Shown here in pieces: positions 3,280 through 40,192 of a DNA stretch of 64,000 nt; within the stretch, counting starts at the first letter, position 1; the number at the start of each line of letters is the position of its first letter. This stretch comes from Trichocoleus sp. FACHB-46 (lineage in GTDB: Bacteria; Cyanobacteriota; Cyanobacteriia; FACHB-46), in NCBI RefSeq assembly GCF_014695385.1, contig NZ_JACJOD010000028.1:124001-188000 (forward strand). The letters run 5' to 3'. A model generated the notes under the pieces. That model was not told the origin of the DNA. It saw only the letters and a list, made by a program, of their open reading frames with translations, and did not search any database. A program made the translations under genes and the position numbers.

Positions 3280-4209
3280 TTAGCCATCTGTGTTAATTCG
3301 AGCAATCAATTCCTTTAGGGTTGCTTCAGCTTGAGCATTGTCGATTTGGCAAGTTCCCGCATTGGCATGACCACCGCCGCCATATTGCAGCATTAATTCG
3401 CCAATATTGGTTTTGGAGCTTTTGTTAAAAATCGACTTACCCACTGCGAAAACTGTATTCTGTTGCTTTACGCCCCACATCTGATGAATGGAGATGTTGC
3501 AGTTGGGAAACAAAGCATAAATCATGAAACGGTTGCCTGCATAGATTACATCCTCATTCCGCAGGTCTAAGACCACTAAGTTGTCATATACGGTGGCACA
3601 ACGCAGAAGTTGATCTTTGAACTGAGATGCTTGTTCAAAGTAGAGGTCAACTCGTTCCTTAACATCAGGTAGTTCTAGGATTTCAGCGATGGTGTGATTT
3701 TTGCAATAGTCGATTAATTCCATCATCAAACTGTAGTTTGAGATATTGAATTCCTTGAATCTTCCCAAACCTGTTCTGGCATCCATTAAAAAGTTGAGGA
3801 GCACCCAATTCTTAGGATGTAAGACTTCATCAATATTAAATTGAGCTGAGTCTCCTTTATCAACGGCCTCCATCATTTCGGTGGAGATGTGGGGGAATTT
3901 CTCTGAGCCTCCAAAATAGTCGTAAACCACTCTGGCTGCGGAAGGAGCCTCTGGGTTGTTAATATAGCCTGCTTCAGGATTTTGATTTCGCAGAATCTCA
4001 CTGTAGTGGTGATCGAACGCTAAATGAACTCCTGACACATAGGGTAGATTGGTGGTGATATCTTTATCGGTAATTGCAATTTTGCCATCCTGCATATCTT
4101 TGGGATGGACAAATTTAATTTCGTTAATCAAATCTAATTCTTTTAATAAAACAGCACAGACAAGGCCATCAAAATCGCTTCTAGTGACTAATCGGTATTG
4201 GTCGGTCAT
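3280..4209 (-). CDS. DHH/DHHA1-family phosphoesterase
   Basis: The sequence has the DHH-family metal motifs: a DFDG motif near residue 12, FDHHYSE near residue 66, and the DHHA1 substrate-binding motif GGGGHANAG near residue 285. Members cleave short oligonucleotides, cyclic-dinucleotide products, phosphoadenosine phosphate or polyphosphate, and the substrate cannot be told here. At about 309 residues it lacks the extra CBS or DRTGG domains of pyrophosphatases and is in the NrnA/exopolyphosphatase-like size range. I prefer the ATG at 4209 (MTDQYRLV) to a GTG nine bases upstream. It is divergent from ilvA across a 261-base spacer that shows only one HIP1-like site. Confidence 0.85.
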   Translation of the reverse strand: MTDQYRLVTRSDFDGLVCAVLLKELDLINEIKFVHPKDMQDGKIAITDKDITTNLPYVSGVHLAFDHHYSEILRNQNPEAGYINNPEAPSAARVVYDYFGGSEKFPHISTEMMEAVDKGDSAQFNIDEVLHPKNWVLLNFLMDARTGLGRFKEFNISNYSLMMELIDYCKNHTIAEILELPDVKERVDLYFEQASQFKDQLLRCATVYDNLVVLDLRNEDVIYAGNRFMIYALFPNCNISIHQMWGVKQQNTVFAVGKSIFNKSSKTNIGELMLQYGGGGHANAGTCQIDNAQAEATLKELIARINTDG

Positions 4210-4470
4210 AACTACCACTAATAATTCCTCTTATAGTAAAACCCGTTACTCAATGCGACACAGCTTTTGGTATCAGCGATCGCAAGCTAAGCATTCCACC
4301 CTAGACTTCCCAGAACTTGCTAGATGGCGACAAAGAAAGTAAAACAGCTTAACTTTGAGCGCAGGAAACTATAGAAGCTTTTCTAATTCGCGCGATCGTC
4401 CACCTGCACAGCAAAAGGCGAGACTGGAGTAAAATTGTCCTTTATCTGCCACTGCTCACCCCTTGACCCC

Positions 4471-5982
4471 ATGCTTTGCGACTACCTGGTACAAATCCTG
4501 ACGGCTCGTGTTTATGATGTCGCCCAAGAATCGCCGCTAGAGTACGCCCCTAATTTATCGGCACGGCTAAATAATAAGTTGCTACTGAAGCGGGAAGATA
4601 TGCAGTCAGTGTTTTCGTTTAAGCTGCGGGGGGCCTACAACAAAATGGCAAACTTATCCCCGGAGCAGCTAGCGCAAGGCGTGATTGCAGCTTCAGCAGG
4701 AAACCATGCTCAAGGGGTTGCTCTGGGTGCTAGTCGGCTAGGAACTCGTGCCATCATTGTCATGCCTGTGACTACTCCTCAGGTCAAGGTAGATGCGGTT
4801 AAAGCACGGGGCGGTGAAGTGGTGCTACATGGCGACACCTATGATGATGCTTATGCTTATGCCCGTCAACTTGAAGCGGAAAAAGGATTGACCTTTATTC
4901 ATCCCTTTGATGACCCCGATGTGATTGCAGGCCAAGGCACGATTGGCATGGAGATTTTGCGGCAATGTCAGCAACCGATTCATGCCATCTTTGTCGCGAT
5001 CGGTGGTGGTGGCTTAATTTCTGGAATTGCGGCTTATGTTAAACGGTTACGCCCAGAAATCAAAATCATTGGCGTAGAACCTGTGGATGCCGATGCGATG
5101 CACCAATCCCTTAAAGCAGGACATCGGGTGCGCTTGCCTCAGGTGGGGTTGTTTGCTGATGGGGTAGCGGTACGCGAGGTAGGAGAAGAAACGTTTCGCC
5201 TCTGTCAAGAATATGTAGATGACATTATTCTGGTGGATACAGATGCCACCTGTGCGGCGATCAAAGATGTGTTTGAGGATACGCGATCGATTCTGGAACC
5301 TGCCGGAGCCTTAGCGATCGCTGGAGCCAAAGCCTACGCAGAAAGAGAACAACTTGAAGGACAAACGTTAATTGCGATCGCTTGCGGTGCCAACATGAAC
5401 TTTGATCGCCTGCGATTTGTGGCAGAGCGAGCCGAGTTTGGTGAACGTCGAGAAGCGATTTTTGCCGTCAACATCCCAGAGGAGCCAGGAAGTCTCCGCA
5501 AGTTCTGTGAGTGCCTGGGTCGTCGCAATCTGACCGAGTTCAATTACCGCATTTCTGACCAAAAGGAAGCGCATATCTTTGTCGGTTTACAGATTCAAAA
5601 TCGGGCTGATGCCGCAAAGATGGCGCAAGACTTTGAGACCTGTGGATTCAAGACGATTGATCTCACAGATGATGAATTAACCAAATTACACCTCCGACAT
5701 ATGGTGGGTGGTCACTCGGCTCTGGCTCATCATGAACTGCTCTACCGCTTCGAGTTCCCCGAACGTCCCGGTGCCTTGATGAAGTTTGTCACCTCCATGA
5801 GCCCCAACTGGAACATCAGCATGTTCCACTACCGCAACAACGGTGCAGACTATGGGCGGATTGTGGTGGGGATGCAAGTGCCACCCCAAGAGATGCAAGA
5901 GTGGCAAGCCTTCCTCGACACCTTAGGATATCGCTATTGGGATGAAAGCCAGAATCCTGCCTATAAGTTGTTTTTGGGGTAG
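4471..5982 (+). CDS. ilvA: Threonine ammonia-lyase, biosynthetic
   Basis: The enzyme converts L-threonine to 2-oxobutyrate and ammonia, the committed step to isoleucine. The PLP lysine lies in SVFSFKLRGAYNKM, the phosphate-binding glycines in GGGGLISG, and SAGNHAQG is the substrate loop. The C-terminal third carries two ACT-like regulatory repeats, each beginning near an E-x-PG motif (IPEEPGSLRKF, FPERPGALMKF), as in isoleucine-inhibited long-form IlvA. I chose the ATG at 4471 (MLCDYLVQILTARVYDVA), giving 503 residues, close to the E. coli length. An upstream in-frame TTG at 4435 would add an unlikely leader. It also draws on threonine, as would the tdh/kbl genes at 38-40 kb. Confidence 0.96.
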   Translation: MLCDYLVQILTARVYDVAQESPLEYAPNLSARLNNKLLLKREDMQSVFSFKLRGAYNKMANLSPEQLAQGVIAASAGNHAQGVALGASRLGTRAIIVMPVTTPQVKVDAVKARGGEVVLHGDTYDDAYAYARQLEAEKGLTFIHPFDDPDVIAGQGTIGMEILRQCQQPIHAIFVAIGGGGLISGIAAYVKRLRPEIKIIGVEPVDADAMHQSLKAGHRVRLPQVGLFADGVAVREVGEETFRLCQEYVDDIILVDTDATCAAIKDVFEDTRSILEPAGALAIAGAKAYAEREQLEGQTLIAIACGANMNFDRLRFVAERAEFGERREAIFAVNIPEEPGSLRKFCECLGRRNLTEFNYRISDQKEAHIFVGLQIQNRADAAKMAQDFETCGFKTIDLTDDELTKLHLRHMVGGHSALAHHELLYRFEFPERPGALMKFVTSMSPNWNISMFHYRNNGADYGRIVVGMQVPPQEMQEWQAFLDTLGYRYWDESQNPAYKLFLG

Positions 5983-27231: not shown

Positions 27232-28149
27232 TTATATCTTTTTGCTGCTAAGTTCTTGTCTTGTCTGTGGCTCAGGTTTTGATAAGAGCTGCATGGCTTG
27301 CAGTCCAGCAATTGGTTCTACAAACGAGCAGGAGCCGAAGGAACGGAAGATCTGTTTACGGGCGATCGCTAGTTCTGGCAGGCTGAGCTGATGTTGGTTC
27401 CAGCTAATAGCGCTGTCTGTTAGTAGAAACTGATCAGCCGACTGTTCTTGCAGCAAGCTTAAACCAGCTTCCGAAGTAATCTTTTGCCAGTAGACCAAAG
27501 CTGAAGCCAGCGCCACATTTAAGAAACCAGGCATCGTTGTGACCTCACTCTCTGGTTCGTAGGTCAACGGGTACTCGCCAGGTATGGGGTGATGAAGACC
27601 TGCAGTGGCCTTGAAGGAGACTTGAGCCTGAGCACAGGCAAAGATAAATTCGTAGAGTTGTACTGCACTTGGAAAGGCAGCCGCAGTTATGCCACCAGTC
27701 CGAATTTTGGCAGAGGCTCCTTGGTGGTGTAACACGTCTAAGTAAGGAGTTAAATCCTGATCCAGAGGAATTTCAAAAAAGGTTTCTACTTGTGGCAGTA
27801 GATCGAGAGCGGTGATTTCAGTTGCTGTTAAGGGAGGAAATTCTAGAGCTTGGAGGGCGATCGCAGGGTTATGAGCCGCTAAAGATTGAACTCGACTGAG
27901 AACAGGCTCAAAATCCTGAGAAATAACGATACTAAGCGGCCACTGGGCGAGCGGGAAGGTAGGTAAGAGAGCAATGAATTCTTCTAGGTGTGAGGCGGGC
28001 AGGACGAATCGCCCCAGCATCCAAGCGTCAGGAGAAGCGTGATATTGAGCATAATTCGCCATTGCTGCTTTTAGGCTCAACTGAGCGGGTGGAAAGAAAC
28101 CTGCATAATCTACGATCGCTGAAAGAAAGGTACTAACTGATGACAGCAT
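27232..28149 (-). CDS. Conserved-looking hypothetical protein, hppD-adjacent
   Basis: The 305-residue protein has no signal peptide or membrane segment. The N-terminal motif DYAGFFPPAQLSL, followed by alternating strand/helix segments (WPLSIVISQD, ALQALEFPPL, SAKIRTGGI, VSFKATAGLHHPI), suggests a TIM-barrel-like alpha/beta fold. The segment KIRTGG with downstream FKATAGLHH is reminiscent of barrel-strand phosphate or metal sites. I do not recognise a named family. It is divergent from the hppD operon across a 348-base spacer and may share regulation. Confidence 0.7.
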   Translation of the reverse strand: MLSSVSTFLSAIVDYAGFFPPAQLSLKAAMANYAQYHASPDAWMLGRFVLPASHLEEFIALLPTFPLAQWPLSIVISQDFEPVLSRVQSLAAHNPAIALQALEFPPLTATEITALDLLPQVETFFEIPLDQDLTPYLDVLHHQGASAKIRTGGITAAAFPSAVQLYEFIFACAQAQVSFKATAGLHHPIPGEYPLTYEPESEVTTMPGFLNVALASALVYWQKITSEAGLSLLQEQSADQFLLTDSAISWNQHQLSLPELAIARKQIFRSFGSCSFVEPIAGLQAMQLLSKPEPQTRQELSSKKI

Positions 28150-28232
28150 CTAGCGTTACCTCAAATACGGATTATCTTCGAGGTGGTTTAGATGTCCGTA
28201 CTCAACCTAATTGCCTTGTCAAAAATTAACCC

Positions 28233-28262
28233 TTGAGACGGACCAAAAATAAAATCTATAAT
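28233..28262 (+). promoter_or_regulatory. Sigma-70-type promoter of the hppD-hmgA operon
   Basis: TTGAGA (28233-28238) and a consensus TATAAT (28257-28262) are spaced by 18 bases. A start near 28269 would give a leader of about 230 bases before the hppD ATG. The rest of the spacer (28150-28497) holds no ORF that I support. Confidence 0.72.
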
Positions 28263-28497
28263 CTTACTATAGGGTTAGTAGCAAGTGAGCTGCAAACCAC
28301 AGAACCCCTCTCAGGACGAGTCTGTATTCTGACGCTGCATTGACAGAAAACATCTCTGATTTAAGTAATGAGATCGCTCCAGTGAATAAAGGTAGGTAAG
28401 GTCGAGCGCCTTTTATCAGCTGGAATAGTCATGGATTTTGGTGTGAGGAGTGGGAGCGGTGCCCTGCGGTAGAAGCGGCTGGTCAGGAGGAATCCCC

Positions 28498-29586
28498 ATG
28501 CATGATATTTGCCCGATTAAACGCTTTGATCACCTAGAATTCTACGTGGGTAATGCCAAGCAAGCAGCGCTCTTTTATGCTGATTGCTTTGGTTTTACCA
28601 ATACTGCTTATCGGGGATTAAGTACTGGAAGCCGCGACGTAACCTCCTATGTCATGGAGCAAGGAGAAATTCGTTTGGTCCTAAGTAGCGCTCTGCACCC
28701 CGATCACGCGATCGCGCAGAGCGGGTTGAAACATGGCGATAGTGTGGCAGTGATTGCTCTAGAAGTGCCAGATGCAGAGAAAGCCTTCTGGGAAACAACA
28801 TCTCGTGGAGCTAGAGAAGCGATCGCACTGACTGAGGAGCAAGACGAGCAAGGGGTGTTTCGCTACGCCGTTATTCATGTCTATGGAGATATGCTAGTTA
28901 AGTTTGTTGAGCGCAGCCAATACCAAGGATTTGCTCCTGGTTTCGCTATGCGTCAGCAGGCTCATCAACGGGTTGGTGCAGGGCTAACCGCGATTGATCA
29001 TGTCGTAGCCAACGTAGAATATGGCGCAATGGATCGCTGGGTACAGTTCTTCACCGATACGCTGGGCTTTGAGCTATTGATGCACTTTGATGATCAGGCA
29101 ATTTCTACAGAATATTCTGCTTTGATGTCTAAGGTGATGCGCGATCGTACAGGCAAAATTAAGCTACCCATCAACGAGCCCGCCTATGGCAAACGCAAAT
29201 CACAGATTGATGAGTTCTTGGAATATCACCACGGACCTGGGATTCAGCATATCGCTTTAGCAACCAACAATATTATTGAAACAGTCACCCAACTAAAACG
29301 CTCTGGCGTTGAGTTCCTCCAGACTCCCCCGACATATTACCAAAACTTAGCTTCCCGTGTCGGTGCTCTAGAAGAACCGATTGATCAACTTGCTCAGTTA
29401 GGCATTCTGATCGATCGCGATTCGGAAGGCTATCTCCTCCAGATCTTCACCCAACCTGTCCAAGACCGCCCCACCCTATTCTTTGAGATCATTCAGCGCC
29501 ACGGAGCCCAAGGATTTGGTGAAGGCAACTTTAAGGCACTGTTTGAAGCGATCGAACGAGAACAAGCGCTGAGGGGAAATCTTTGA
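28498..29586 (+). CDS. hppD: 4-hydroxyphenylpyruvate dioxygenase
   Basis: This Fe(II) enzyme turns 4-hydroxyphenylpyruvate into homogentisate, the entry point of tyrosine breakdown and of tocopherol headgroup synthesis. It has two VOC half-domains. The iron ligands are visible as His in AIDHVVANV, His in GIQHIALATN and Glu in FFEIIQRHG near the C-terminus, where the family tail QGFGEGNFKALFEAIE follows. A perfect AGGAGG lies 7 bases before the ATG at 28498 and sets the start at 362 residues. The upstream GTG at 28450 is rejected. hmgA follows 6 bases after its stop. Confidence 0.97.
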   Translation: MHDICPIKRFDHLEFYVGNAKQAALFYADCFGFTNTAYRGLSTGSRDVTSYVMEQGEIRLVLSSALHPDHAIAQSGLKHGDSVAVIALEVPDAEKAFWETTSRGAREAIALTEEQDEQGVFRYAVIHVYGDMLVKFVERSQYQGFAPGFAMRQQAHQRVGAGLTAIDHVVANVEYGAMDRWVQFFTDTLGFELLMHFDDQAISTEYSALMSKVMRDRTGKIKLPINEPAYGKRKSQIDEFLEYHHGPGIQHIALATNNIIETVTQLKRSGVEFLQTPPTYYQNLASRVGALEEPIDQLAQLGILIDRDSEGYLLQIFTQPVQDRPTLFFEIIQRHGAQGFGEGNFKALFEAIEREQALRGNL

Positions 29587-29592
29587 GAAGTT

Positions 29593-30750
29593 ATGAGCTA
29601 CTACTACAAACTAGGAGCAATTCCCCATAAACGGCACACGCAGTTCCGTCAACCGGATGGCTCGCTTTATCACGAAGAATTGATTAGTGTCCAAGGGTTT
29701 TCGGGGGTGCAATCTTTGCTGTACCACTTGCGGCCACCAACTCAGGTTTATAAGGTGTTATCTCATCAAGACACCAAGATTGTTCATGAGGAGTCGAGTG
29801 CCTTGCGGCATCGTCATTTACGCACCGCAGATGTCACAGCAGGTGGAGATGCGATCGCGGCTCGAATTCCTTTACTAGTAAATGCCGATGTCTGTATTTC
29901 TGTCGCTCGACCAACAGAGCCGATGGCTTACTGGTACCGCTTTGCTCACGGAGATGAGGTGATCTTTATCCATCAGGGTACAGGGATATTGGAGAGCCAA
30001 TATGGGGTGCTGCCTTATCGACCGGGAGATTATTTGGTAATTCCAACCGGGGTACTGTGGCGGATTCTGCCAGATGCAAAAAGCGAGCAGCGGATGTTGG
30101 CGATCGAAGCTCAGGGACATATCGAACCACCTCAGCGGTATCTAAATCGGTACGGCCAGTTTCTGGAACATGCACCTTACTGTGAGCGGGACATTCGCCC
30201 ACCCCAAGACTTAGTGGTTCACGATGAAGCAGGGGAGTTCGAAGTTCAAATTAAAACTCAGGGTTGTATTACGCATTATCTCTATCACTATCATCCGCTA
30301 GATGTGGTGGGTTGGGATGGTCATCTGTATCCTTATGCTTTAAATATTGAGGATTTTGAACCAATTACCGGACGGGTGCACCAGCCGCCTCCTGTGCATC
30401 AAACCTTTGCGGCGGCTGGGTTTGTGATTTGTTCTTTTGTGCCGCGTCTGTTCGATTACCATCCACTCGCCATTCCTGCACCCTACAATCACTCCAATGT
30501 CGATTCGGATGAGGTGCTTTACTACGCTGCGGGTAACTTTATGTCACGCAGAGGCATCGAAGAAGCTTCTGTCACTGTGCATCCTAGCGGCATCCCCCAC
30601 GGTCCCCATCCCGGTATGTATGAAGGGTCAATTGGTAAAGAGCGCACCGATGAATTAGCTGTCATGATTGACACCTTCCGCCCCCTCAAGTTAACGGCTC
30701 AGGCTACGCACTTAGAGGATCTCAATTATCTCTACAGTTGGAGCGCTTAA
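29593..30750 (+). CDS. hmgA: Homogentisate 1,2-dioxygenase
   Basis: This cupin-fold Fe(II) enzyme opens the homogentisate ring to maleylacetoacetate. The metal-binding region is intact: HSNVDSDEVLYYAAG near residue 297 and HPSGIPHGPHPG near 330, which supply the His and Glu ligands of the family. Length (385) is typical of the shorter bacterial type. It sits 6 bases after hppD. Neither maleylacetoacetate isomerase nor fumarylacetoacetase is in the window, so the lower pathway, if present, is elsewhere. Confidence 0.95.
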   Translation: MSYYYKLGAIPHKRHTQFRQPDGSLYHEELISVQGFSGVQSLLYHLRPPTQVYKVLSHQDTKIVHEESSALRHRHLRTADVTAGGDAIAARIPLLVNADVCISVARPTEPMAYWYRFAHGDEVIFIHQGTGILESQYGVLPYRPGDYLVIPTGVLWRILPDAKSEQRMLAIEAQGHIEPPQRYLNRYGQFLEHAPYCERDIRPPQDLVVHDEAGEFEVQIKTQGCITHYLYHYHPLDVVGWDGHLYPYALNIEDFEPITGRVHQPPPVHQTFAAAGFVICSFVPRLFDYHPLAIPAPYNHSNVDSDEVLYYAAGNFMSRRGIEEASVTVHPSGIPHGPHPGMYEGSIGKERTDELAVMIDTFRPLKLTAQATHLEDLNYLYSWSA

Positions 30751-30792
30751 TCTGGACTTTTAGTTTTTCTCTCTCTTCTCAGGAGAACTTCG

Positions 30793-31704
30793 ATGATGAC
30801 TACAGTTCTCAACTCGCCTACTCCTGCAATCTCTGCTCGAATTCAAGAACGTTTGCAGCAAGGCCAGCTAACTCAAGACCAAGTGACCGAGTTTCAAGCT
30901 TTTCTGGCTGAAATCGATCGCCACTTTCTGCAACACCGGATTATTACAGACAATGCTTACACCCGTTGGTTTCAGCAAGGTGAAGCGGCAGATGCTGAGT
31001 TGCGGCATTTTATCCAGCAATTCTCGGTTTTCTCTAATCAGTTTCTAATTGCAGCGCTACAAAAGGAGATTAATGCTCCCACGCTCCAACAGTCGCGGGC
31101 GAGCCGAGAAATTCTCTTAAATGAATTAGGCGTAATCTACCGTAAAACTGGGCAAGCGATCGCCAATCAGCCATCTTTAACCGAGGCAGAAAAAGAGCGA
31201 GAAGGTGATCCAGAACTGGTCGGAACAGAAGGCACAGTAGATGGAGGGATTTGTCGTTTCCGCGCCGCTCACTTTGAATGGTTGGTGGCAGTGGCAGCGA
31301 GTTTAGGGCTGAATTTCGCGGATATTGGTAAACGCAAGCATGGCACGCCAGCAACGCTGCATTTCTGCGATGAGTTAATTCGGCTTTACGGCAGCGACGA
31401 CCCCCAAATCGCGGAAGGTGCGAGCTTTGCGGTGGAGCATTGGGCCGCAGCAGGCTTCTGGCAAGAGCTAGAAGATGGTTTACTGAAGATTAAACAAATT
31501 CGACATCCTCAACTACCGCTAGCCTTCTTCACCTGGCACAACCGCGTAGAAGCGCAACATGCAGGACATACCTTAGAAGAGATTGAAGCTGTTTACTTCA
31601 GCTCTGATTTTGATCCAGTCAAGTTTTTTCAAGGAGGTCGAGAGATTCTGGAAGCGATCGCGGTCTTTTGGAATGGCTTAGCGAGCGATCTTTACATGCA
31701 ATAA
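30793..31704 (+). CDS. Haem-oxygenase-like putative diiron enzyme (TenA/PqqC/HDO fold)
   Basis: The all-helical 303-residue protein carries spaced Glu/His residues expected of haem-oxygenase-like diiron oxidases: E111, H160, E215-H216, H249, E253 and H256/H259. The motif WHNRVEAQHAGH is especially suggestive. Annotators call such proteins iron-containing redox enzymes, and known HDOs cut or hydroxylate amino-acid-derived substrates. The substrate is not predictable. It lies 42 bases after hmgA on the same strand, behind a good AGGAG site, so it is probably the third gene of the operon. Confidence 0.78.
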   Translation: MMTTVLNSPTPAISARIQERLQQGQLTQDQVTEFQAFLAEIDRHFLQHRIITDNAYTRWFQQGEAADAELRHFIQQFSVFSNQFLIAALQKEINAPTLQQSRASREILLNELGVIYRKTGQAIANQPSLTEAEKEREGDPELVGTEGTVDGGICRFRAAHFEWLVAVAASLGLNFADIGKRKHGTPATLHFCDELIRLYGSDDPQIAEGASFAVEHWAAAGFWQELEDGLLKIKQIRHPQLPLAFFTWHNRVEAQHAGHTLEEIEAVYFSSDFDPVKFFQGGREILEAIAVFWNGLASDLYMQ

Positions 31705-31712
31705 CCACCTGC

Positions 31713-33770
31713 TTAAAAAATTGTCTTGAGTAGCAAGTTATCCATCAACTTGTGATCTACCAAATATTTGACAATTGCATGCCCTGATTCCTCAAATGCT
31801 TGAATTGTGCAGTTTGGTAAGGCATTAAAGCGGCTAGCATGCAGATCGTCTAAATTCACAGTTCCAGGTGTTTCTGGATCTAGCTTTTTACCATAGAAGA
31901 TACGTATATCTGGAGTATGAGGAGAAGTCTGGCAGAGTGTAGGCAAGTCAAAATAACGAACACTAGGAGGATTTGTCTCTAGGGCTTCCATGATGGAGAG
32001 CCAGCGAGTATCGCCCATTGCGATCGCTTGAGCGGAGTCTAGGCAGGACAGAGGACCAAAAGTAATGATCTGATCGGCTCCTAACAGTTGTCCAAACATA
32101 ATGGCGGCATACCCACCCATAGACTGCCCAATCATAATGACTTTGCTAGGGGCAATTTGAACAATTAGTTGTTTCAGGCTATCTACAACTTCGTTAACTG
32201 TGTGTCCTAGTCCTGGGATGCCGCGCTGATACCAACTGTTGGATAAGTCTCGCACCAAAATTCGGTTGATAGGTTTAGCAGCTAACTGAGCCAATTTTTT
32301 GGTTCTGCCGTAAAAATCAAACTGAGGAAGACCATCCCAAGAGACAAAACCAAACGAAATAGTTAACGGTTCCCCGGCAAAGATCTCATCTACCAGGTAT
32401 GAAGCATTGGTGCTCTCAACTATCTCATTCGTGAGAGGGCCATGATTCAGGACCAAATTAGACTGCTGAGCCAGCAAAGTTGCTTGCCCTGACGCTACCT
32501 GACTACTTTGAGCCGCTTTGCCTGTCGATGATATGTCTGTCGATGAAGTGATATGAGGGTTTTGATGTGAGTATGTGTTGGGGAAGATGAAATTGGTAAA
32601 TGACAGCGAGATGCTAACGTCCAGCCCTTTGACTTGATGCCACCATCCCACTGGTACGAAAATTACTTCTCCAGGTTCTAATACTGTTTCAATAATCTGA
32701 ACATCTTTAACGAGTGGATACTTTTCGTAATCTATATTCTCCAAATCTACACGACTGAAGACACCAATATCGTTGTAAACCAAGGGAGTGGCAGCGGGTG
32801 AAATTAGCCGCCAGCGCTTGCGTCCATACACTTGAGCCATCATCAAGTTCATTGGGTCGTGGTGCAACGGAGTAACGGTGCCTGCTGGCCCAAACCAAAA
32901 GAAGACTGTGCCTTTTGTGCTTTCAGGGTTCAGTAGTTCCGGAAACATGATAAAGTCCTTGAACAGACCTTTGAGGTCTTCGCGCTCAAGGTTGCCATTG
33001 TTGGCAACCATGTAGTAGTCATTACTTTCTCCACCCTGAACCACCATATCTACATATTCGCTAAGCTTGATTGCCCGCTTATATTGATTAGTATTGATTT
33101 CGTAGCTGGGGTCTGAGGTGCGACCAAATTGGATTTGTACTTCTGCTTGACCGTAATTCGTCTTTAAAAAGTCAGGAGTCCACGAGGAAAGGGCAGGCCA
33201 GTCCGCCATCATGCCTGTCAAAATAACAGGTGTGTTGGTTGCGTAATATTTTTCTAAAAATTCTTCTCTAGAGATGCGATCGCGTCGTTCAATCGTACTA
33301 AAGTTAGGAGATAGCTGTGTGAGTTGGCGTTGAATCGTCAGAATAGACTCTAGTTTACGTAGACGTTGCAGTGTTTCACTTTCTGTTTGAAAGGTTTTTT
33401 CGGTTGCAATATAGCTGACTGCCTGAGTTGCTAGGGCTGCATCAATTCCTTCGCGGACCATTGTCTCAACTAAAACAGAGTCTGGAACTTGGCGAAGCTT
33501 GTTCTCAATGATCCATTGTTTCCAAGGCTCAGAGAGATTTAAGGCCGATGAATCTGCCTGACTTGCTACAGATGTCTGTGGGATTACCTTTTGTTGTTCT
33601 AGTTCCAAAATTTTGGCAGCAAGATTCATCCGCTCTTGTACAGAGAGCTGCTCACTGGACAACATTGCCTCCAATGTTTCTATTGCTCGCTCAACTAAAT
33701 TGCCAAATTTTGGTGATTGAGCAATCGCTGTGGGATCAAGATTGAGTGCCAACTGCTTTTCTGTAAACAT
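31713..33770 (-). CDS. JmjC/cupin-like oxygenase fused to an alpha/beta hydrolase
   Basis: The 685-residue protein has an N-terminal helical region (1-150). A JmjC-type cupin domain covers about 155-395, with the 2OG-Fe ligands visible as H303-x-D305 in PLHHDPM and H378 in GWWHQVKGLDVS. A Ser/Gln-rich linker spans about 396-445. The alpha/beta hydrolase domain has the nucleophile elbow GQSMGG (S550) and a likely catalytic His in ESGHA (H664). Known JmjC enzymes of this bacterial class hydroxylate peptides or proteins. The fusion implies sequential hydroxylation and ester or thioester cleavage. It converges on the diiron enzyme gene (8-base gap). Confidence 0.85.
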   Translation of the reverse strand: MFTEKQLALNLDPTAIAQSPKFGNLVERAIETLEAMLSSEQLSVQERMNLAAKILELEQQKVIPQTSVASQADSSALNLSEPWKQWIIENKLRQVPDSVLVETMVREGIDAALATQAVSYIATEKTFQTESETLQRLRKLESILTIQRQLTQLSPNFSTIERRDRISREEFLEKYYATNTPVILTGMMADWPALSSWTPDFLKTNYGQAEVQIQFGRTSDPSYEINTNQYKRAIKLSEYVDMVVQGGESNDYYMVANNGNLEREDLKGLFKDFIMFPELLNPESTKGTVFFWFGPAGTVTPLHHDPMNLMMAQVYGRKRWRLISPAATPLVYNDIGVFSRVDLENIDYEKYPLVKDVQIIETVLEPGEVIFVPVGWWHQVKGLDVSISLSFTNFIFPNTYSHQNPHITSSTDISSTGKAAQSSQVASGQATLLAQQSNLVLNHGPLTNEIVESTNASYLVDEIFAGEPLTISFGFVSWDGLPQFDFYGRTKKLAQLAAKPINRILVRDLSNSWYQRGIPGLGHTVNEVVDSLKQLIVQIAPSKVIMIGQSMGGYAAIMFGQLLGADQIITFGPLSCLDSAQAIAMGDTRWLSIMEALETNPPSVRYFDLPTLCQTSPHTPDIRIFYGKKLDPETPGTVNLDDLHASRFNALPNCTIQAFEESGHAIVKYLVDHKLMDNLLLKTIF

Positions 33771-34010
33771 ATTAAATGTTTGTAATCAATCTCTAACTCT
33801 TGGAAATCAAGCTTAGTAAAGCTTTAGAGGTCAGGCAGATAAGTGTATTAACATAGATGCAGAGGAGTGTTTCAAGCTTCATCATACACGCTCTAAATTT
33901 TGATTCCATTTCCTCTCAAATGACTTGAAGCTTTTCATCACTCCCCATCAGGCAGCTAGATTCAAATCTATTTTTGCAAGGGGTGAATTGCGATCGCCAA
34001 ACAACTGTCC
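33771..34010. other. Divergent spacer between JmjC fusion and acyl-activating enzyme genes
   Basis: AT-rich sequence presumably holds both promoters. One HIP1-like site overlaps the 5' end of the acyl-activating gene. No ORF or distinctive structure was found. Confidence 0.45.
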
Positions 34011-36089
34011 TTGGCGCAACTTCTGATCTGTGGCATTGAAAACCACATTGCCACTCAACTTTTAACCCAGATCAATCAGTTGCTTGTTGCTTTACCAACG
34101 ATTGAGTGTTGGCAATATTTCACTCAGCATCTTCTGAAGCCTGAGCATCCTTGGGCGTTACATCAACTCCTCTACACTGAAACTTTTGCTGACTGGGATG
34201 AAAAACAGGGGCCGCCTCCTGCTTGGTCTCCTTCTCTGGAGCAAATTCAGTCTACAAATATTGCGGCTTTGATGCGAAAACAGGCGATCGCAACCTACCC
34301 GGAATTACATGCTTGGTCCTGTCAGCATCGAGATGAGTTTTGGCAAATCATGATGCGACGGTTGGGAATTCGCTTTCAGCAAAACTATACACAGATTCTA
34401 GATTTATCCCAAGGAGTTGAATCGCCTCAGTGGTTGATCAACGCTCGGCTCAATATTGTAGAAAGTTGTTTCCAAGCCCCCGATAGCGCTATAGCCATTG
34501 TCTTTCAACCGGAGGGGGGTTCTCTGGATACCCTCACCTATGGCGAACTGCGTAGTTTGGTGAATCAGGTTTCAAATGGTCTAGTAGAACTGGGTCTACG
34601 ACCAGGAGACGCGATCGCTGTTGTCTTACCGATGACAGTAGAAGCAGTTGTGATTTATTTGGGGATTGTTCAGGCGGGTTGTGTGGTGGTGTCGGTCGCG
34701 GATAGCTTTGCTGCACCTGAAATCGCTATCCGCTTACAGATTGCGCAAGCAAAAGCAGTATTCACGCAAGCCTTGATTCTGCGGGCTGGAAAGCAATTGC
34801 CTCTCTATACCAAAGTCATAGAGGCACAGTCTCCAAAAGCGATCGTTCTTGCTGCTTCTTCTAACACTCAATTGCGATCGGGTGATCTGTCCTGGCAAGA
34901 TTTCCTGAGTGATCGCCAGCAATTTCAGCCTATACCTGCGGTTTCATCAGCTCACACTAATATCTTGTTCTCTTCTGGGACCACTGGTGAACCCAAGGCA
35001 GTTCCTTGGACGCAGACCACGCCGATTAAATGTGCCGTGGATGGACATCTACACCAAGACATTCATGCTGGAGATGTGGTGGCTTGGCCGACAAACCTGG
35101 GTTGGATGATGGGTCCGTGGCTGATCTATGCCAGTTTGATTAATCAGGCCGCGATCACCTTGTACTATGGTACTCCGACGACCAGAGAGTTCGGAAAATT
35201 TATTCAAGACGCTCAGGTAACGATGCTGGGTGTAGTGCCTAGTTTAGTAACAGCATGGAAAAATACTGATTGTATGAAAGGACTGGACTGGAGCACAATT
35301 AAAACTTTTAGCTCTACAGGTGAGTGTTCTAATTCACAGGATATGTTGTTCCTCATGTCTTTGGCAGGCTATAAACCCATCATAGAATACTGCGGTGGGA
35401 CCGAAATCGGTGGAGCATATATCACTGGAACTGTAGTACAACCCTGCGCTCCTGCAACTTTTACCACTCCTGCTCTCGGTCTTGATGTTGTCATTATGAA
35501 CCCAGAGGGACAGCCAGCAGAGAGAGGTGAAGCATTCATCATTCCTCCGTCTATTGGGCTCTCAACTGAACTGCTGAATCGGGATCATCATCAAGTGTAC
35601 TTTGCCGATACACCTTGTTTACCTGTCGTGCGCGAGGCTATAGAAGCCAAGAGTCAAAGAGGCTTTTCTCATGCTTCACCCTCCATCCCTCTTCGTCGCC
35701 ACGGCGATCGCTTAGAACGTTTACCCAACGGCTACTATCGAGCCCAGGGACGAGTAGATGATGCAATGAATTTGGGTGGAATTAAGGTGAGTTCCACAGA
35801 GATCGAGCAAGTGCTGAATAGAGTTGAGGATATTGGTGAGACAGCGGCGATCGCGATCGCTCCTCCGGGCGGTGGTCCTAGCCAGTTAATTATTTATGCG
35901 GTTGTTGTCCCGAATAGCTCGAAAACTAGAGAGGAACTAAAAACCTCTCTGCAAACTGCGCTCGCTCAGAATCTCAATCCTCTCTTCAAAATTCGTGATG
36001 TGGTCATGTTGGATGCTTTGCCACGGACAGCTTCTAACAAGGTGATGCGACGGGTGCTGCGTGACCAATACCGTCTAACGCCTTTATGA
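34011..36089 (+). CDS. Acyl-activating enzyme resembling plant AAE17/AAE18
   Basis: The ANL-superfamily ligase forms an acyl adenylate and then probably an acyl-CoA. The P-loop-like motif is FSSGTTGEPKAVPW near residue 320. The segments NLGWMMGPWL, YCGGTEIGGAY and GRVDDAMNLGGIKVSS are near-matches to plant peroxisomal AAE17/18 as I recall them. The C-terminal catalytic Lys lies in PRTASNKVMRRVL. The N-terminal 150 residues also fit this family. The usual ATG is missing; I give the TTG at 34011, but an ATT 24 bases upstream is also in frame. It precedes an aminotransferase by 45 bases. The substrate is unknown. Confidence 0.82.
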   Translation: MAQLLICGIENHIATQLLTQINQLLVALPTIECWQYFTQHLLKPEHPWALHQLLYTETFADWDEKQGPPPAWSPSLEQIQSTNIAALMRKQAIATYPELHAWSCQHRDEFWQIMMRRLGIRFQQNYTQILDLSQGVESPQWLINARLNIVESCFQAPDSAIAIVFQPEGGSLDTLTYGELRSLVNQVSNGLVELGLRPGDAIAVVLPMTVEAVVIYLGIVQAGCVVVSVADSFAAPEIAIRLQIAQAKAVFTQALILRAGKQLPLYTKVIEAQSPKAIVLAASSNTQLRSGDLSWQDFLSDRQQFQPIPAVSSAHTNILFSSGTTGEPKAVPWTQTTPIKCAVDGHLHQDIHAGDVVAWPTNLGWMMGPWLIYASLINQAAITLYYGTPTTREFGKFIQDAQVTMLGVVPSLVTAWKNTDCMKGLDWSTIKTFSSTGECSNSQDMLFLMSLAGYKPIIEYCGGTEIGGAYITGTVVQPCAPATFTTPALGLDVVIMNPEGQPAERGEAFIIPPSIGLSTELLNRDHHQVYFADTPCLPVVREAIEAKSQRGFSHASPSIPLRRHGDRLERLPNGYYRAQGRVDDAMNLGGIKVSSTEIEQVLNRVEDIGETAAIAIAPPGGGPSQLIIYAVVVPNSSKTREELKTSLQTALAQNLNPLFKIRDVVMLDALPRTASNKVMRRVLRDQYRLTPL

Positions 36090-36134
36090 GGGAGATTTAG
36101 GGAGCTAGCTGATTTTTCATACAGTGAGGTAATT

Positions 36135-37304
36135 ATGACAATATTTGCAGAACGTATGAGTCACCTAGGCACTGAATCCGCTTTTGAGGTGCTTGCTAGA
36201 GCTAAAAAGTTAGAAGCTCAGGGCAAAAGTGTGATTCATCTAGAGATTGGTCAGCCCGATTTTCCCACCCCTGACAATATCTGTGAAGCCGCTTGCCGAG
36301 CCATGCGCGAAGGATATACGGGCTATGGTCCTGCAGCTGGGTTATTGGAGTTTCGCAAAGTAGTTGCTGAGTATATTGCAGCGACCAGAGGTGTGGAAGT
36401 TCATCCCGATGAAGTCGTCGTCACACCTGGAGCTAAACCAATTATTTTTTTCACGATATTGACGCTGGTGAATCCGGGAGATGAGGTCATTTATCCCAAT
36501 CCAGGTTTTCCGGTTTATGAATCGGTAATCAGTTTTGTTGGCGCTAAAGCTGTGCCTTTACCGTTACGGGAAGAAGTAGATTTTCGCTTTCGGATTGAAG
36601 ACTTAGTTAGTGCTATTTCCGATCGCACCAAACTCTTAATTATTAATTCTCCTCAAAATCCTACAGGCGGGCTGTTGGCCGCAGAAGATTTGGCTGCGAT
36701 CGCAGAGCTAGCCAATAAACATGATTTCTATGTGCTCTCTGATGAGGTTTATTCCCGGATGGTCTATGGCGAGAAGCATCAAAGTATCTTAAGTTTGCCA
36801 GGGATGAAAGCGCGGACTATTTTGCTGGATGGTCACTCGAAAACCTATGCGATGACAGGCTGGCGCTTGGGGTATGGTGTGGCTCCTCAGGCCATCACGG
36901 AAAAGATGGTGCAACTGATGATTAATTCTAATTCTTGCACCTGCTCTTTTACACAAATCGCTGGAATGGAAGCATTGACTGGGCCACAGGATGCGGTGGA
37001 GCAAATGATGGCTGAATTCCAACAACGGCGAGATGTGATTGTTGAAGGACTCAATGCGATCGCTGGAATCCAATGTCGCAAACCCACAGGTGCGTTCTAT
37101 GTATTCCCCAATGTCAAGCAACTACCCCTCTCTTCTGATGCGCTGGCTGATTATCTTTTGCAGGAAGCAAATGTCGCCGTCCTCTCAGGAACTGCTTTCG
37201 GTGAGTATGGTGATGGCTACTTAAGACTTTCCTACGCTAATTCTCCAGAGAATATCCATGAGGCGTTAGAACGAATTCAAATAGCGATAATTAAGCTTAA
37301 GTAG
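36135..37304 (+). CDS. Class I PLP aminotransferase (aspartate-aminotransferase-like)
   Basis: The 389-residue fold-type I enzyme shows the PLP lysine in DGHSKTYAMTGWRLGY, the NPTGG motif, SDEVYSRM and the C-terminal Arg in YLRLSYA that binds the carboxylate. It resembles broad aspartate/aromatic aminotransferases. In this setting, amino donors or an oxo acid linked to the upstream ligase are plausible but unproven. The two genes are probably cotranscribed. Confidence 0.88.
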   Translation: MTIFAERMSHLGTESAFEVLARAKKLEAQGKSVIHLEIGQPDFPTPDNICEAACRAMREGYTGYGPAAGLLEFRKVVAEYIAATRGVEVHPDEVVVTPGAKPIIFFTILTLVNPGDEVIYPNPGFPVYESVISFVGAKAVPLPLREEVDFRFRIEDLVSAISDRTKLLIINSPQNPTGGLLAAEDLAAIAELANKHDFYVLSDEVYSRMVYGEKHQSILSLPGMKARTILLDGHSKTYAMTGWRLGYGVAPQAITEKMVQLMINSNSCTCSFTQIAGMEALTGPQDAVEQMMAEFQQRRDVIVEGLNAIAGIQCRKPTGAFYVFPNVKQLPLSSDALADYLLQEANVAVLSGTAFGEYGDGYLRLSYANSPENIHEALERIQIAIIKLK

Positions 37305-37325
37305 GCGCAACGGAAAGAGGGGGGG

Positions 37326-37982
37326 TTAAGTTTCTTCGGTAAGACGTAAGGCAGCAATGTTTTGACAAGAGAAAGTGGCTCCCTCTACACATCGACGGTG
37401 AATCAATTCTATGATCTGTCTGGCTGAATTTTTGAAAGACCACTGACACAGGCAACCATCATCTTGAGGTGCTACTGATAAGGGTACAAAGCCTTTGCTC
37501 TGCCATACTTCGGCTGCTGCATTTATATCATTGGTACGCAGGGCAACATGATGAACGGTATTTAAGCCCCGCTCTTGCAAAAGGCGATCGAGCTGATCAC
37601 TAGATGCGTGGGGAGCGGCTAGGACCAGAATGCCGCCGGATGGCATTAGCACTGAGAGCAAATACATCGTTAGATCAGCCGGGAAAGTGGTGAAACCTGG
37701 GCAGAAGTCTTGTGGCCATATTCCTGGCCCTTCAATGGTTTTCGCTCCATACTGAATTAAGCGGTTGGCGTATTGGGTGAGATCCACGGAGCTGGAGAAC
37801 AACATCACCAAGTGATCTATAACCACCCTTTCACCAAATAAGATGGTTACAAATGCAGCATCTAGAAACTCAGGTTGTTTGCCTGCCTCTTTGTAGAAAA
37901 GCAGTCCATCAACTTCTACATAAGGTGGCTCGTGAATGCTTTGAGGCTGGTTTGCAGTGCGATCGCGAGTAGAGTATGACAT
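37326..37982 (-). CDS. VOC-fold protein distantly related to HPPD
   Basis: The 218-residue protein has two glyoxalase-type repeats, with one His in VIDHLVMLF near residue 55 and HHVALRTNDI near 145. The last repeat resembles the HPPD half-domain, but the usual C-terminal Glu region is not clear. It may be a divergent dioxygenase or a binding protein. I prefer the ATG at 37982 to the TTG at 37988. It is the last gene of a minus-strand run, 11 bases after kbl. Confidence 0.65.
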   Translation of the reverse strand: MSYSTRDRTANQPQSIHEPPYVEVDGLLFYKEAGKQPEFLDAAFVTILFGERVVIDHLVMLFSSSVDLTQYANRLIQYGAKTIEGPGIWPQDFCPGFTTFPADLTMYLLSVLMPSGGILVLAAPHASSDQLDRLLQERGLNTVHHVALRTNDINAAAEVWQSKGFVPLSVAPQDDGCLCQWSFKNSARQIIELIHRRCVEGATFSCQNIAALRLTEET

Positions 37983-37993
37983 AACCAATTCAC

Positions 37994-39178
37994 CTAAATC
38001 ACGCCATGTTTTTTGCCGACTCTTGCAAACGCATCAATACAGTGGTCAAGATGGGCTTGGGTATGAGCAGCAGAGAGCTGGATTCGAATGCGGGCCTGAC
38101 CTTGAGGCACCACAGGATAGCTAAACCCAATCACATAAATGCCTTCCTCTAGCAGATCATGTGCCATATCCTTGGCTAACTTGGCTTTGTAGAGCATGAT
38201 TGGCACAATGGGATGGATACCTGGTTTAATGTCGAAGCCGCGATCGCTCATCTGCTGCCGAAAGTAGCGTGTATTCTCCATCAGGCGATCGCGTAGCTCA
38301 CTAGTTTCGTTGAGCAGATCTAAGACTCGAATGCTGGTGTAGGTAATGGCAGGAGCCAATGTATTAGAGAACAGATAAGGCCGCGATCGCTGCCGCAGTA
38401 GATCCACTATCTGTTTATGAGCAGCGGTAAAGCCACCAGAAGCACCTCCTAAGGCTTTCCCAAGAGTGCTGGTGATAATATCTACTCGCCCGATTACGCC
38501 ACAATGCTCGATCGAACCCCGTCCCTGGGCTCCCAAAACTCCGGTGCCGTGGCTATCATCTACCATGACCAAAGCATCATATTTCTCCGCTAAGTCGCAA
38601 ACTTGCTCTAGCTGGGCAATCTCTCCATCCATGCTAAAAACGCCATCTGTGGCAATCAGCCGAATTTTAGCGGTCTGAGTCTCTTGCAGAACTTGTTCTA
38701 ATTCCTGCATATCACTATGCGCATAGCGATACCGCTTAGCTTTGCACAGCCGAATGCCATCAATAATGCTGGCATGGTTTAGGGCATCGCTGATTACCGC
38801 AGACTCAGCATCAAGGATGGTCTCAAATAATCCTCCATTCGCATCAAAACAGGAGGTGTAGAGGATCGCGTCCTCCGTGCCCAAGAATTCTGAAATCCGA
38901 GCCTCCAGCTCTTTATGAATCACTTGAGTACCACAGATAAAGCGCCCAGAGGAGAGGCCAAATCCGTACTTGGCAATTCCCACCTGCGCCGCTGCTACGA
39001 CATCAGGATGATTAGCCAATCCCAAGTAGTTGTTGGCGCAAAAGTTCAGTACTTCCCTGCCACCCTGAACCACAATTTCAGCTCCCTGTGGCATTGTTAG
39101 CGCCCGTTCTTCTTTACTTAAGCCCGATTGCTGGATCTCATCTAGGAGGGTTTGAAAAATAGCTTTGGAGGTAAACAT
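37994..39178 (-). CDS. kbl: 2-amino-3-ketobutyrate CoA ligase (glycine C-acetyltransferase)
   Basis: This alpha-oxoamine synthase cleaves 2-amino-3-ketobutyrate to glycine and acetyl-CoA. It has [19 protein letters not shown]-like [10 protein letters not shown], the PLP region [15 protein letters not shown] and the PLP lysine in [14 protein letters not shown]. Its length, about 394, matches E. coli Kbl. It is downstream of the disrupted tdh gene, its normal partner. If tdh is dead, it would need another source of the ketoacid or run in reverse. The ATG at 39178 follows GGAGG-like sequence at a distance. Confidence 0.92.
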
Positions 39179-39222: not shown

Positions 39223-40192
39223 TCAGCTTCTCACGGCTGGCTTTTGGCTTGTGACTTCTATCCTTTGCGAGAGCTTTTCTAACATATCCACCACGATCGC
39301 CGATAAGCCATATTGATGCCTCCAACCCCAATCGGCTCTTGCGCGTGAATCATCAATCACAGCAGGCCAAGAATCTGCGATCGCTTGACGAAAATCCGGT
39401 GCGTAGTGGCAGTTAAAATGAGGAAGATGCTTTTGAATTTCAGTGACCAATTCGGCAGCAGAGAAACTCACGGCAGTAATGTTATAACTGGAGCGAATTT
39501 TAATCGAATTTGGCTCAGCAGCCATTAAATCTAAAATGGCACGGATAGCATCTGGCACATACATCATGGGTAGCCGAGTTTCTGGACGCACAAAGCAGGT
39601 GTAAGTGCCGTGCTGAAGCGCTGCTGCAAAAATTTCTACCGCAAAATCTGTGGTGCCGCCGCCCGGAGGAGTGCTGTAGCTGATGATGCCTGGCAAACGT
39701 AGACTCCGGACATCAACGCCAAAGTGGTGCGCGTAGTAATGGCAGAGCAATTCCCCTGTAACCTTAGTGATCCCGTAGATCGTAGCGGGATCTTCAACCG
39801 TAATTTGGGGTATCTAGTTTAGGGGTGTGAGGCCCAAAGACCGCGATCGAGCTAGGAAAAAAGACTTTTAACTGATATGTTTTTGCAGCTTCTAAAATGT
39901 TTCTCAAACCATTGACATTGACATCCCAGCAGCGATCTGGGTATTTTTCTCCTTTGGCCGAGAGTACTCCGGCAAGATGATAGATCGTTTGAATCTGCTC
40001 TTGTTCAATGATCGTCTGTAGCTGCTGATGGTTAGTAACATCTAGGGTTTTATACAAGTAGAAATTGTTTTCAGAATGAGGTGGCGATCGCCCACTTTCT
40101 ACAACCTGTTCTACTCCATAGATCTGACGCAGAACTGTCACCAAGTCACTTCCCAGTTGCCCTTGCGACCCAGTTACTAAAATTCTGTTCAT
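39223..40192 (-). pseudogene. tdh: L-threonine 3-dehydrogenase (SDR type), frameshifted
   Basis: From 40192 the frame encodes an NAD-binding start (MNRILVTGSQGQLGSDLV) and continues to PHTPKLDTP. A net two-base loss at the G-run 39807-39810 (minus-strand C-run) then leads to a stop at 39794. The other frame continues the family exactly (QITVEDPATIYGITKVTGE, then GVDVRSLRLPGIISY, FRQAIADSWPAVIDDS and DWGW) to a stop at 39223. Both halves are otherwise intact and match the SDR-type threonine dehydrogenase. It lies 45 bases upstream of kbl. The cause could be mutation, a sequencing error or programmed frameshifting. Confidence 0.85.

Follow-up and report, generated by a model that had tools for sequence, protein, structure and literature searches.

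A cyanobacterial JmjC oxygenase fused to an alpha/beta hydrolase domain as a candidate modular enzyme with two activities

A single gene of Trichocoleus sp. FACHB-46 encodes a predicted helical part, a JmjC-type oxygenase domain and an alpha/beta hydrolase domain (hereafter H) in one polypeptide. We put at about one in two the probability that this protein is a modular modifying enzyme whose two activities, oxidation and acyl chemistry, serve one target. The fusion architecture is new, whereas the kinds of enzyme that it joins are known. A literature search, which covered titles and abstract openings and for which subscription papers were mostly out of reach, returned no paper on a JmjC-alpha/beta hydrolase fusion, although we make no claim that it is absent from print.

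The gene lies on the minus strand of the window (the whole stretch of 64,000 nucleotides that was analysed) and runs as a single intact open frame from an ATG at 33770 to a stop codon at 31713-31715. An earlier note, made from the letters alone, had read a JmjC domain and an alpha/beta hydrolase in one polypeptide at 31713-33770, and these coordinates proved exact. The features are as follows, in order along the protein, with the basis of each in brackets.

31713..33770, minus strand: whole gene, 685 aa, helical part, JmjC and alpha/beta hydrolase (685-aa ortholog in a congener)
33537..33770, minus strand: residues 1-78, N-terminal helices, faster-evolving (model; dN/dS 0.30)
33396..33536, minus strand: residues 79-125, helical 'N module' (16-example alignment; 23/373 genomes; leave-one-out profile)
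33300..33395, minus strand: residues 126-157, helical connector (model; dN/dS 0.05)
32547..33299, minus strand: residues 158-408, JmjC (Cupin_8) domain, JMJD5-like fold (Pfam; PDB phmmer; fold Z 27.8)
32862..32864, minus strand: H303, predicted Fe(II) ligand (18/18 aligned)
32856..32858, minus strand: D305, predicted Fe(II) ligand (18/18 aligned)
32817..32819, minus strand: K318, predicted 2OG-binding Lys (18/18; aligned to the Lys of JMJD5 GRK)
32637..32639, minus strand: H378, predicted Fe(II) ligand (18/18 aligned)
32406..32546, minus strand: residues 409-455, poorly ordered linker (low pLDDT; dN/dS 0.34)
31716..32405, minus strand: residues 456-685, alpha/beta hydrolase domain H (model of 450-685; fold matches)
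32121..32123, minus strand: S550, predicted nucleophile in GQSMGG (invariant in 8/8 rows; model)
31848..31850, minus strand: D641, predicted triad acid (invariant in 8/8 rows)
31779..31781, minus strand: H664, predicted triad histidine (invariant in 8/8 rows)

The ortholog in a sister species of the same genus (G387) is also 685 aa long and is 88% identical to the window protein, with 86.6% identity at the DNA level. In this pair, from which alone dN/dS was taken because synonymous sites are saturated against the more distant fusion in G407, the ratio is 0.06 for the N module, 0.064 for JmjC, 0.078 for H and 0.34 for the linker. Both the JmjC and H domains are thus under purifying selection, and the linker is much looser. 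The low ratios in the two domains, together with an ortholog of the same length, argue that the fusion is not an accident of assembly. Neither the 685-aa protein nor H has a second match in the 6.56-Mb genome of the window organism.

Pfam assigns residues 169-390 to Cupin_8 (E 1.8e-41; 143.1 bits against a curated cut-off of 27.4) and also recognizes the JmjC family (E 1.8e-8; 35.3 bits against a curated cut-off of 24). The HxD...H ligands that the earlier note saw in the letters are H303, D305 and H378. These three residues, K318, which we take to be the lysine that binds 2-oxoglutarate (2OG), and T300 are invariant in all 18 aligned N-module-JmjC proteins, of which 13 are bacterial and 5 come from viral contigs, four further viral contigs having been left out of the alignment. 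Separately, genome G211 carries an N-module-JmjC-like protein (L111 694-1839, minus strand) in which the HxD and the second His appear, by eye, to have been lost (FPLQAKLED..., ALWWQQC); it is probably a dead oxygenase.

In the whole-protein prediction H was poorly modelled (blocks at about 35-84, pTM 0.44), and a fold search with that model had JmjC-type chains only among the matches listed. We therefore predicted H alone, as residues 450-685 together with three relatives, which gave a pLDDT of 83.8 and a pTM of 0.86. In this model S550, the serine that the earlier note had picked out in GQSMGG, sits between strand 544-549 and helix 551-563, D641 follows the last-but-one strand (621-627) and H664 follows the last strand (654-659). 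H is accordingly modelled as an alpha/beta hydrolase, with the G-x-S-x-G nucleophile elbow after a strand and the acid and histidine after later strands, and its three putative catalytic residues are invariant in an alignment of the window protein with seven homologues of identity down to 27%. On these predictions and alignments, both JmjC and H look catalytically competent.

What kind of reaction H might catalyse was approached through its relatives. Pfam sees the domain weakly (UPF0227, E 9e-5). The top PDB fold match is Gap2 (Glycosylation Associate Protein 2; 6oyc chain B; Z 16.6, rmsd 3.5, 209 aligned; Foldseek E 6.3e-8), which we take to be the Asp2 of S. agalactiae, an O-acetyltransferase of the accessory Sec system. 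SacC, the O-acetyltransferase of the serogroup A capsule (Z 15.6, rmsd 3.6, 201 aligned), is tied with the esterase-type FphI at 15.6, and the general hydrolases below include a lipase within 15.6-14.8 and Est30 at 14.8. Profile searches gave a similar mixture: the 8-row H profile placed SacC first at E 0.013, not significant alone, with Gap2 at E 0.76, and an earlier 6-row profile placed two lipases first (E 0.018 and 0.021), with SacC at E 0.23. NCBIfam added weak matches to Asp2 and XcbB/CpsF (E 0.0011 to 0.21), and none of the ten window proteins scanned looks like an accessory Sec or capsule gene. Because fold matches less than 1 Z unit apart count as ties, the likeness to O-acetyltransferases is a lead, not a result.

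Gap2 leads FphI by only 1 Z unit, so the fold scores do not separate acyl transfer from hydrolysis; since the first fold match acetylates glycans and the esterases are level or just behind, we give acyl transfer no lower odds than cleavage. The earlier note had proposed hydroxylation followed by ester, thioester or peptide cleavage of one substrate. Oxidation combined with ester chemistry gains from the repeated and differently arranged pairings described below; nothing specific points to peptide cleavage. We think it unlikely that H is a deacylase or demethylesterase that acts on a protein or glycan target and clears the way for the oxygenase or for a later glycosyltransferase or sulfotransferase. 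Esterases and lipases, by title, make up most of the best 50 fold matches listed for H, and the predicted triad is intact, but glycan O-acetyltransferases head both the fold search and the profile search, a different one in each and by small margins.

The fusion is not confined to the window sequence; with the predicted triad in place as well, neither of the two results that the earlier note had named as refuting was obtained. A search of the phylum with the whole protein as query gave matches in 63 of 386 genomes, both domains lying in one protein only in the window's genome, but a set of 59 closer genomes contained the fusion in four: the window's, G387, G407 and G396. The G407 protein, from another family, has the same order (helical part, JmjC, H) and is 58% identical, with its N module and JmjC in different frames; that of G396 has the reverse order, H, N module, JmjC. 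In the JmjC tree, which carries a long-branch warning, the reversed-order G396 protein clusters with a viral protein; with that viral row removed its placement is open. Forcing all four fused proteins into one clade was rejected (p-AU 1.3e-5), the clade having been chosen once a first tree was in view. The rejection of a single clade makes at least two separate joinings likely, though not proven. A genome-contig scan with the whole protein as query returned 16 stretches and no relative.

H is also joined to oxygenases of other families. In another cyanobacterium (G093), a 448-aa protein fuses H to a non-JmjC 2OG oxygenase of the P4H/YbiX type, which matches the PHROG 2OG-Fe(II) oxygenase at E 3.4e-27, Pfam weakly and the NCBIfam Fe2+-dependent dioxygenase at E 1.2e-13, below the family cut-off. 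In cyanophage S-H9-2 an H gene overlaps a 2OG-FeII_Oxy_5 gene (E 1.5e-20) by 4 nt, and in cyanophage S-RIM32 an H match sets in where a gene annotated as a 2OG-Fe(II) oxygenase ends. This match spans 586 bases in two parts and seems to contain a frameshift. The S-H9-2 H gene (L120 4959-5561, plus strand) is annotated 'hypothetical protein' and keeps GNSAGGY. Viral scans with hydrolase queries found no relative, and one with the phage hydrolase as query found one locus; a weak H match in a region of the record 'Acinetobacter phage MD-2021a' was left out of the evidence. The variety of ways in which oxygenase and H are combined, from one microbe to another, suggests that they act together on one target.

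H is rare. Profile A1 matched it in 5 of 386 genomes and profile A3 in 7 of 373 (G189 and G292 were left out of further reading); in the class of a Methylococcaceae metagenome-assembled genome (MAG), 12 of 369 genomes gave a match, although several of these matches are weak and some are false. Among the 12, we read frames in G418, G606, G556, G763, G726 and G435 and one of G559. Two candidates were dropped by eye, one in G559 as an S9-type peptidase and one in G210 as resembling homoserine O-acetyltransferase. A 2OG oxygenase accompanies H at 7 of the 15 loci examined, a count that stands without a control family and includes several short contigs (that of G606 has 3,954 bases). At the other eight (the Methylococcaceae MAG, G606, G556, G763, G726, G435, G320 and G102) inspection by eye out to about 3.5 kb, or to the end of the contig, showed none. 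Neighbours, taken as the first 260 residues of frames of at least 90 codons, were mostly judged by eye. In G606 the genes beside H encode a TPR-GT41 glycosyltransferase (Pfam E 1.9e-34) and a sulfotransferase-like protein; in G763 a sulfotransferase gene (E 1.8e-25) adjoins it.

Two relatives bear on whether H might instead be a non-catalytic docking domain. For the S-H9-2 protein, the alignment read by eye suggests that the Asp and His of the triad are missing, and a related copy in G320 has an in-frame TAG. We nevertheless hold a docking role to be very improbable, as the fused proteins retain the complete triad together with the nucleophile elbow, and H is under purifying selection.

The helical part also occurs outside these fusions. 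An alignment of 16 examples defines the N module by the motif W..WI.ENKL....D..LV..M...GID...A...V, and it occurs in 23 of 373 genomes of the cyanobacterial phylum: the window's, the 13 genomes with N-module-JmjC proteins, G211, G044 and seven that belong to a single small-genome genus (f20 g61). In this genus the N module heads a 2OG oxygenase in the four frames read (in L112, 2OG-FeII_Oxy_3, E 4.8e-15); the gene beside it is presumably gatB. The module is thus common to other 2OG oxygenases, and it is weakly detected on a hydrolase without an oxygenase, as a tail on the lone H of the Methylococcaceae MAG. With the MAG row removed from the profile, the MAG H protein ranks immediately below the true members (E 0.0016 among 244 proteins; the next unrelated protein is at 0.019), which is only suggestive that this H carries a relative of the N module.

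A natural exchange is seen in the congener G386. Its DNA is homologous to the window at 27289-31690 and at 33415-38000 (with a small gap at 35627-35685) but not at 31691-33414. The syntenic gene there encodes 356 aa, of which the N-terminal part is kept (63% over residues 1-145) and is followed by a P4H-type 2OG-FeII_Oxy_3 oxygenase (E 5.6e-19). JmjC and hydrolase are thus replaced by a P4H-type oxygenase with the helical part retained, and no further match to the window protein was reported in G386. In G229, a JmjC gene and three genes for P4H-type oxygenases lie next to one another (Pfam was run on two of the three). JmjC relatives elsewhere are annotated 'cupin-like domain-containing protein'. 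The two fusion orders, the presence of H with other oxygenases and the replacement of JmjC-H in G386 together indicate that the modules are exchangeable. Since the swap keeps the helical part, we suggest that this part carries the choice of target; the N module would then be a common element that brings catalytic modules to a shared target or partner.

Five of the nine viral JmjC contigs were read. On one (L078) the N-module-JmjC gene (3854-4984, plus strand) lies directly 3' of a major head protein gene (PHROG E 7.5e-24), an order that hints at a virion protein as target. On phage contig L074, a gene adjoining the JmjC gene seemed to resemble a hydroxyproline-glycosyltransferase, a resemblance that we set aside when Pfam, PHROGs and PDB sequences gave it no support.

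We then considered the genomic neighbourhood. The fusion gene is opposite in orientation to both direct neighbours, which belong to a plus-strand cluster (28450-31704 and 34011-37304) that all three congeners under comparison share. Of the nine flanking proteins that were scanned, most are enzymes that resemble those of tyrosine and amino-acid metabolism. The cluster includes a true 4-hydroxyphenylpyruvate dioxygenase (HPPD; 431 against 277 bits), a protein that is HgmA-like yet far under the HgmA cut-off (50 against 511 bits), an acetoacetyl-CoA-synthetase-like ligase (AMP-ligase), an aminotransferase and a protein without a Pfam match that weakly matches BesC and that we assume to be heme-oxygenase-like. 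The cluster is possibly a non-standard tyrosine pathway. None of its gene families was found shared in the 20 kb around the G407 and G396 fusions, and we therefore treat the neighbourhood as background. We could make out no substrate gene beside the fusion gene. The earlier note had mentioned JmjC proteins with helical N-termini from bacterial peptide pathways; this link found no support here, as the nine flanking proteins show no sign of a RiPP pathway, no precursor-like gene was recognized, and the 240-base gap upstream holds, among ATG-started frames of at least 20 codons, only two (23 and 38 codons), the other gaps being covered for frames of at least 60 codons. Further along the window, an epimerase-like gene (39223-40192, minus strand), presumably threonine-dehydrogenase-like, is in two pieces (175 + 132 aa) and is one 323-aa frame in G386.

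It is possible, although we doubt it, that the fusion protein works on small molecules as part of this cluster, with JmjC hydroxylating a free or carrier-bound amino acid and H releasing it as a thioesterase or esterase. Conservation of the cluster in the three congeners favours this, but the orientation of the fusion gene and the different surroundings in G407 and G396 speak against it, as do the protein substrates of JMJD5 and FIH, which belong to the nearest solved folds. On a plasmid of Streptomyces hirsutus (NZ_CP109265.1, L121), a JmjC gene adjoins an alpha/beta hydrolase in a cluster with class-I tRNA-ligase, AMP-ligase, ATP-grasp and MFS genes, which also favours a small-molecule role and which resembles the clusters described in PMC2922099. 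By BLASTP, however, the Streptomyces hydrolase is unrelated to H, and we rejected the pair as a homologue of the window's.

We return to the modular modifying enzyme. The JMJD5-like JmjC domain would hydroxylate a side-chain carbon of an amino acid, using Fe(II), 2OG and O2. This residue probably lies within a protein or peptide, a substrate class suggested by the JMJD5 and FIH relatives and by the GT41 and sulfotransferase neighbours of H. The Ser-Asp-His domain H would then move or remove an acyl group on the same target, where we prefer O-acylation of the Asp2/SacC kind to plain ester hydrolysis, but only slightly. A more specific version, which we consider improbable, is a composite mark: H would O-acylate the very hydroxyl that JmjC had introduced, leaving an O-acyl-hydroxy-amino acid in a protein. 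If this were true, the pairs of H with JmjC, P4H-type and phage 2OG-FeII_Oxy_5 oxygenases would be variants of one 'hydroxylate then acylate' system.

To our knowledge, substrates have been identified for only a minority of bacterial JmjC proteins. A second activity that is fused recurrently, and with different oxygenases, narrows the search for a target to a position at which oxidation meets acyl chemistry. This idea and that of the helical module as carrier of target choice are open to test in culturable cyanobacteria.

Among the close known relatives are the N-module-JmjC proteins of cyanobacteria (13 of the 386 genomes; 48-61% identity over the N module and JmjC) and of viral contigs (31-42% identity), which differ from the window protein in having no hydrolase domain; H is therefore optional, as most close N-module-JmjC genes are without it. 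The G093 fusion has an H of the same family (27% identity, triad kept) that is likewise joined to a 2OG-Fe(II) oxygenase, but its oxygenase is of a different family, and the profile search, taken to E 10, shows no N module in it.

Among solved structures, JMJD5 is the best relative of the window JmjC domain both by sequence (PDB phmmer E 1.5e-33) and by fold (Z 27.8, rmsd 2.2, 226 aligned), and its Fe ligands and 2OG lysine align with those predicted here. We know of no JMJD5 that has the bacterial N module or a hydrolase domain. In JMJD5, Glu238 and Tyr243 bind the guanidino group of the substrate arginine, according to PMC5862942. These correspond in the alignment, with JMJD5 numbering assigned to the aligned letters, to Q214, which is invariant in 18/18 N-module-JmjC proteins, and T218. 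We therefore rejected an arginyl hydroxylase by JMJD5 homology: although like JMJD5 in fold and predicted chemistry, the domain should not be classed as one, and by this comparison its target residue would not be arginine.

According to PMC5578698, Asp2 carries a Ser-Asp-His triad and adds O-acetyl groups to GlcNAc on the adhesin GspB. The window H shares this predicted triad and has Gap2 as first fold match with SacC near the top, at marginal sequence similarity, but unlike these proteins it is fused to an oxygenase.
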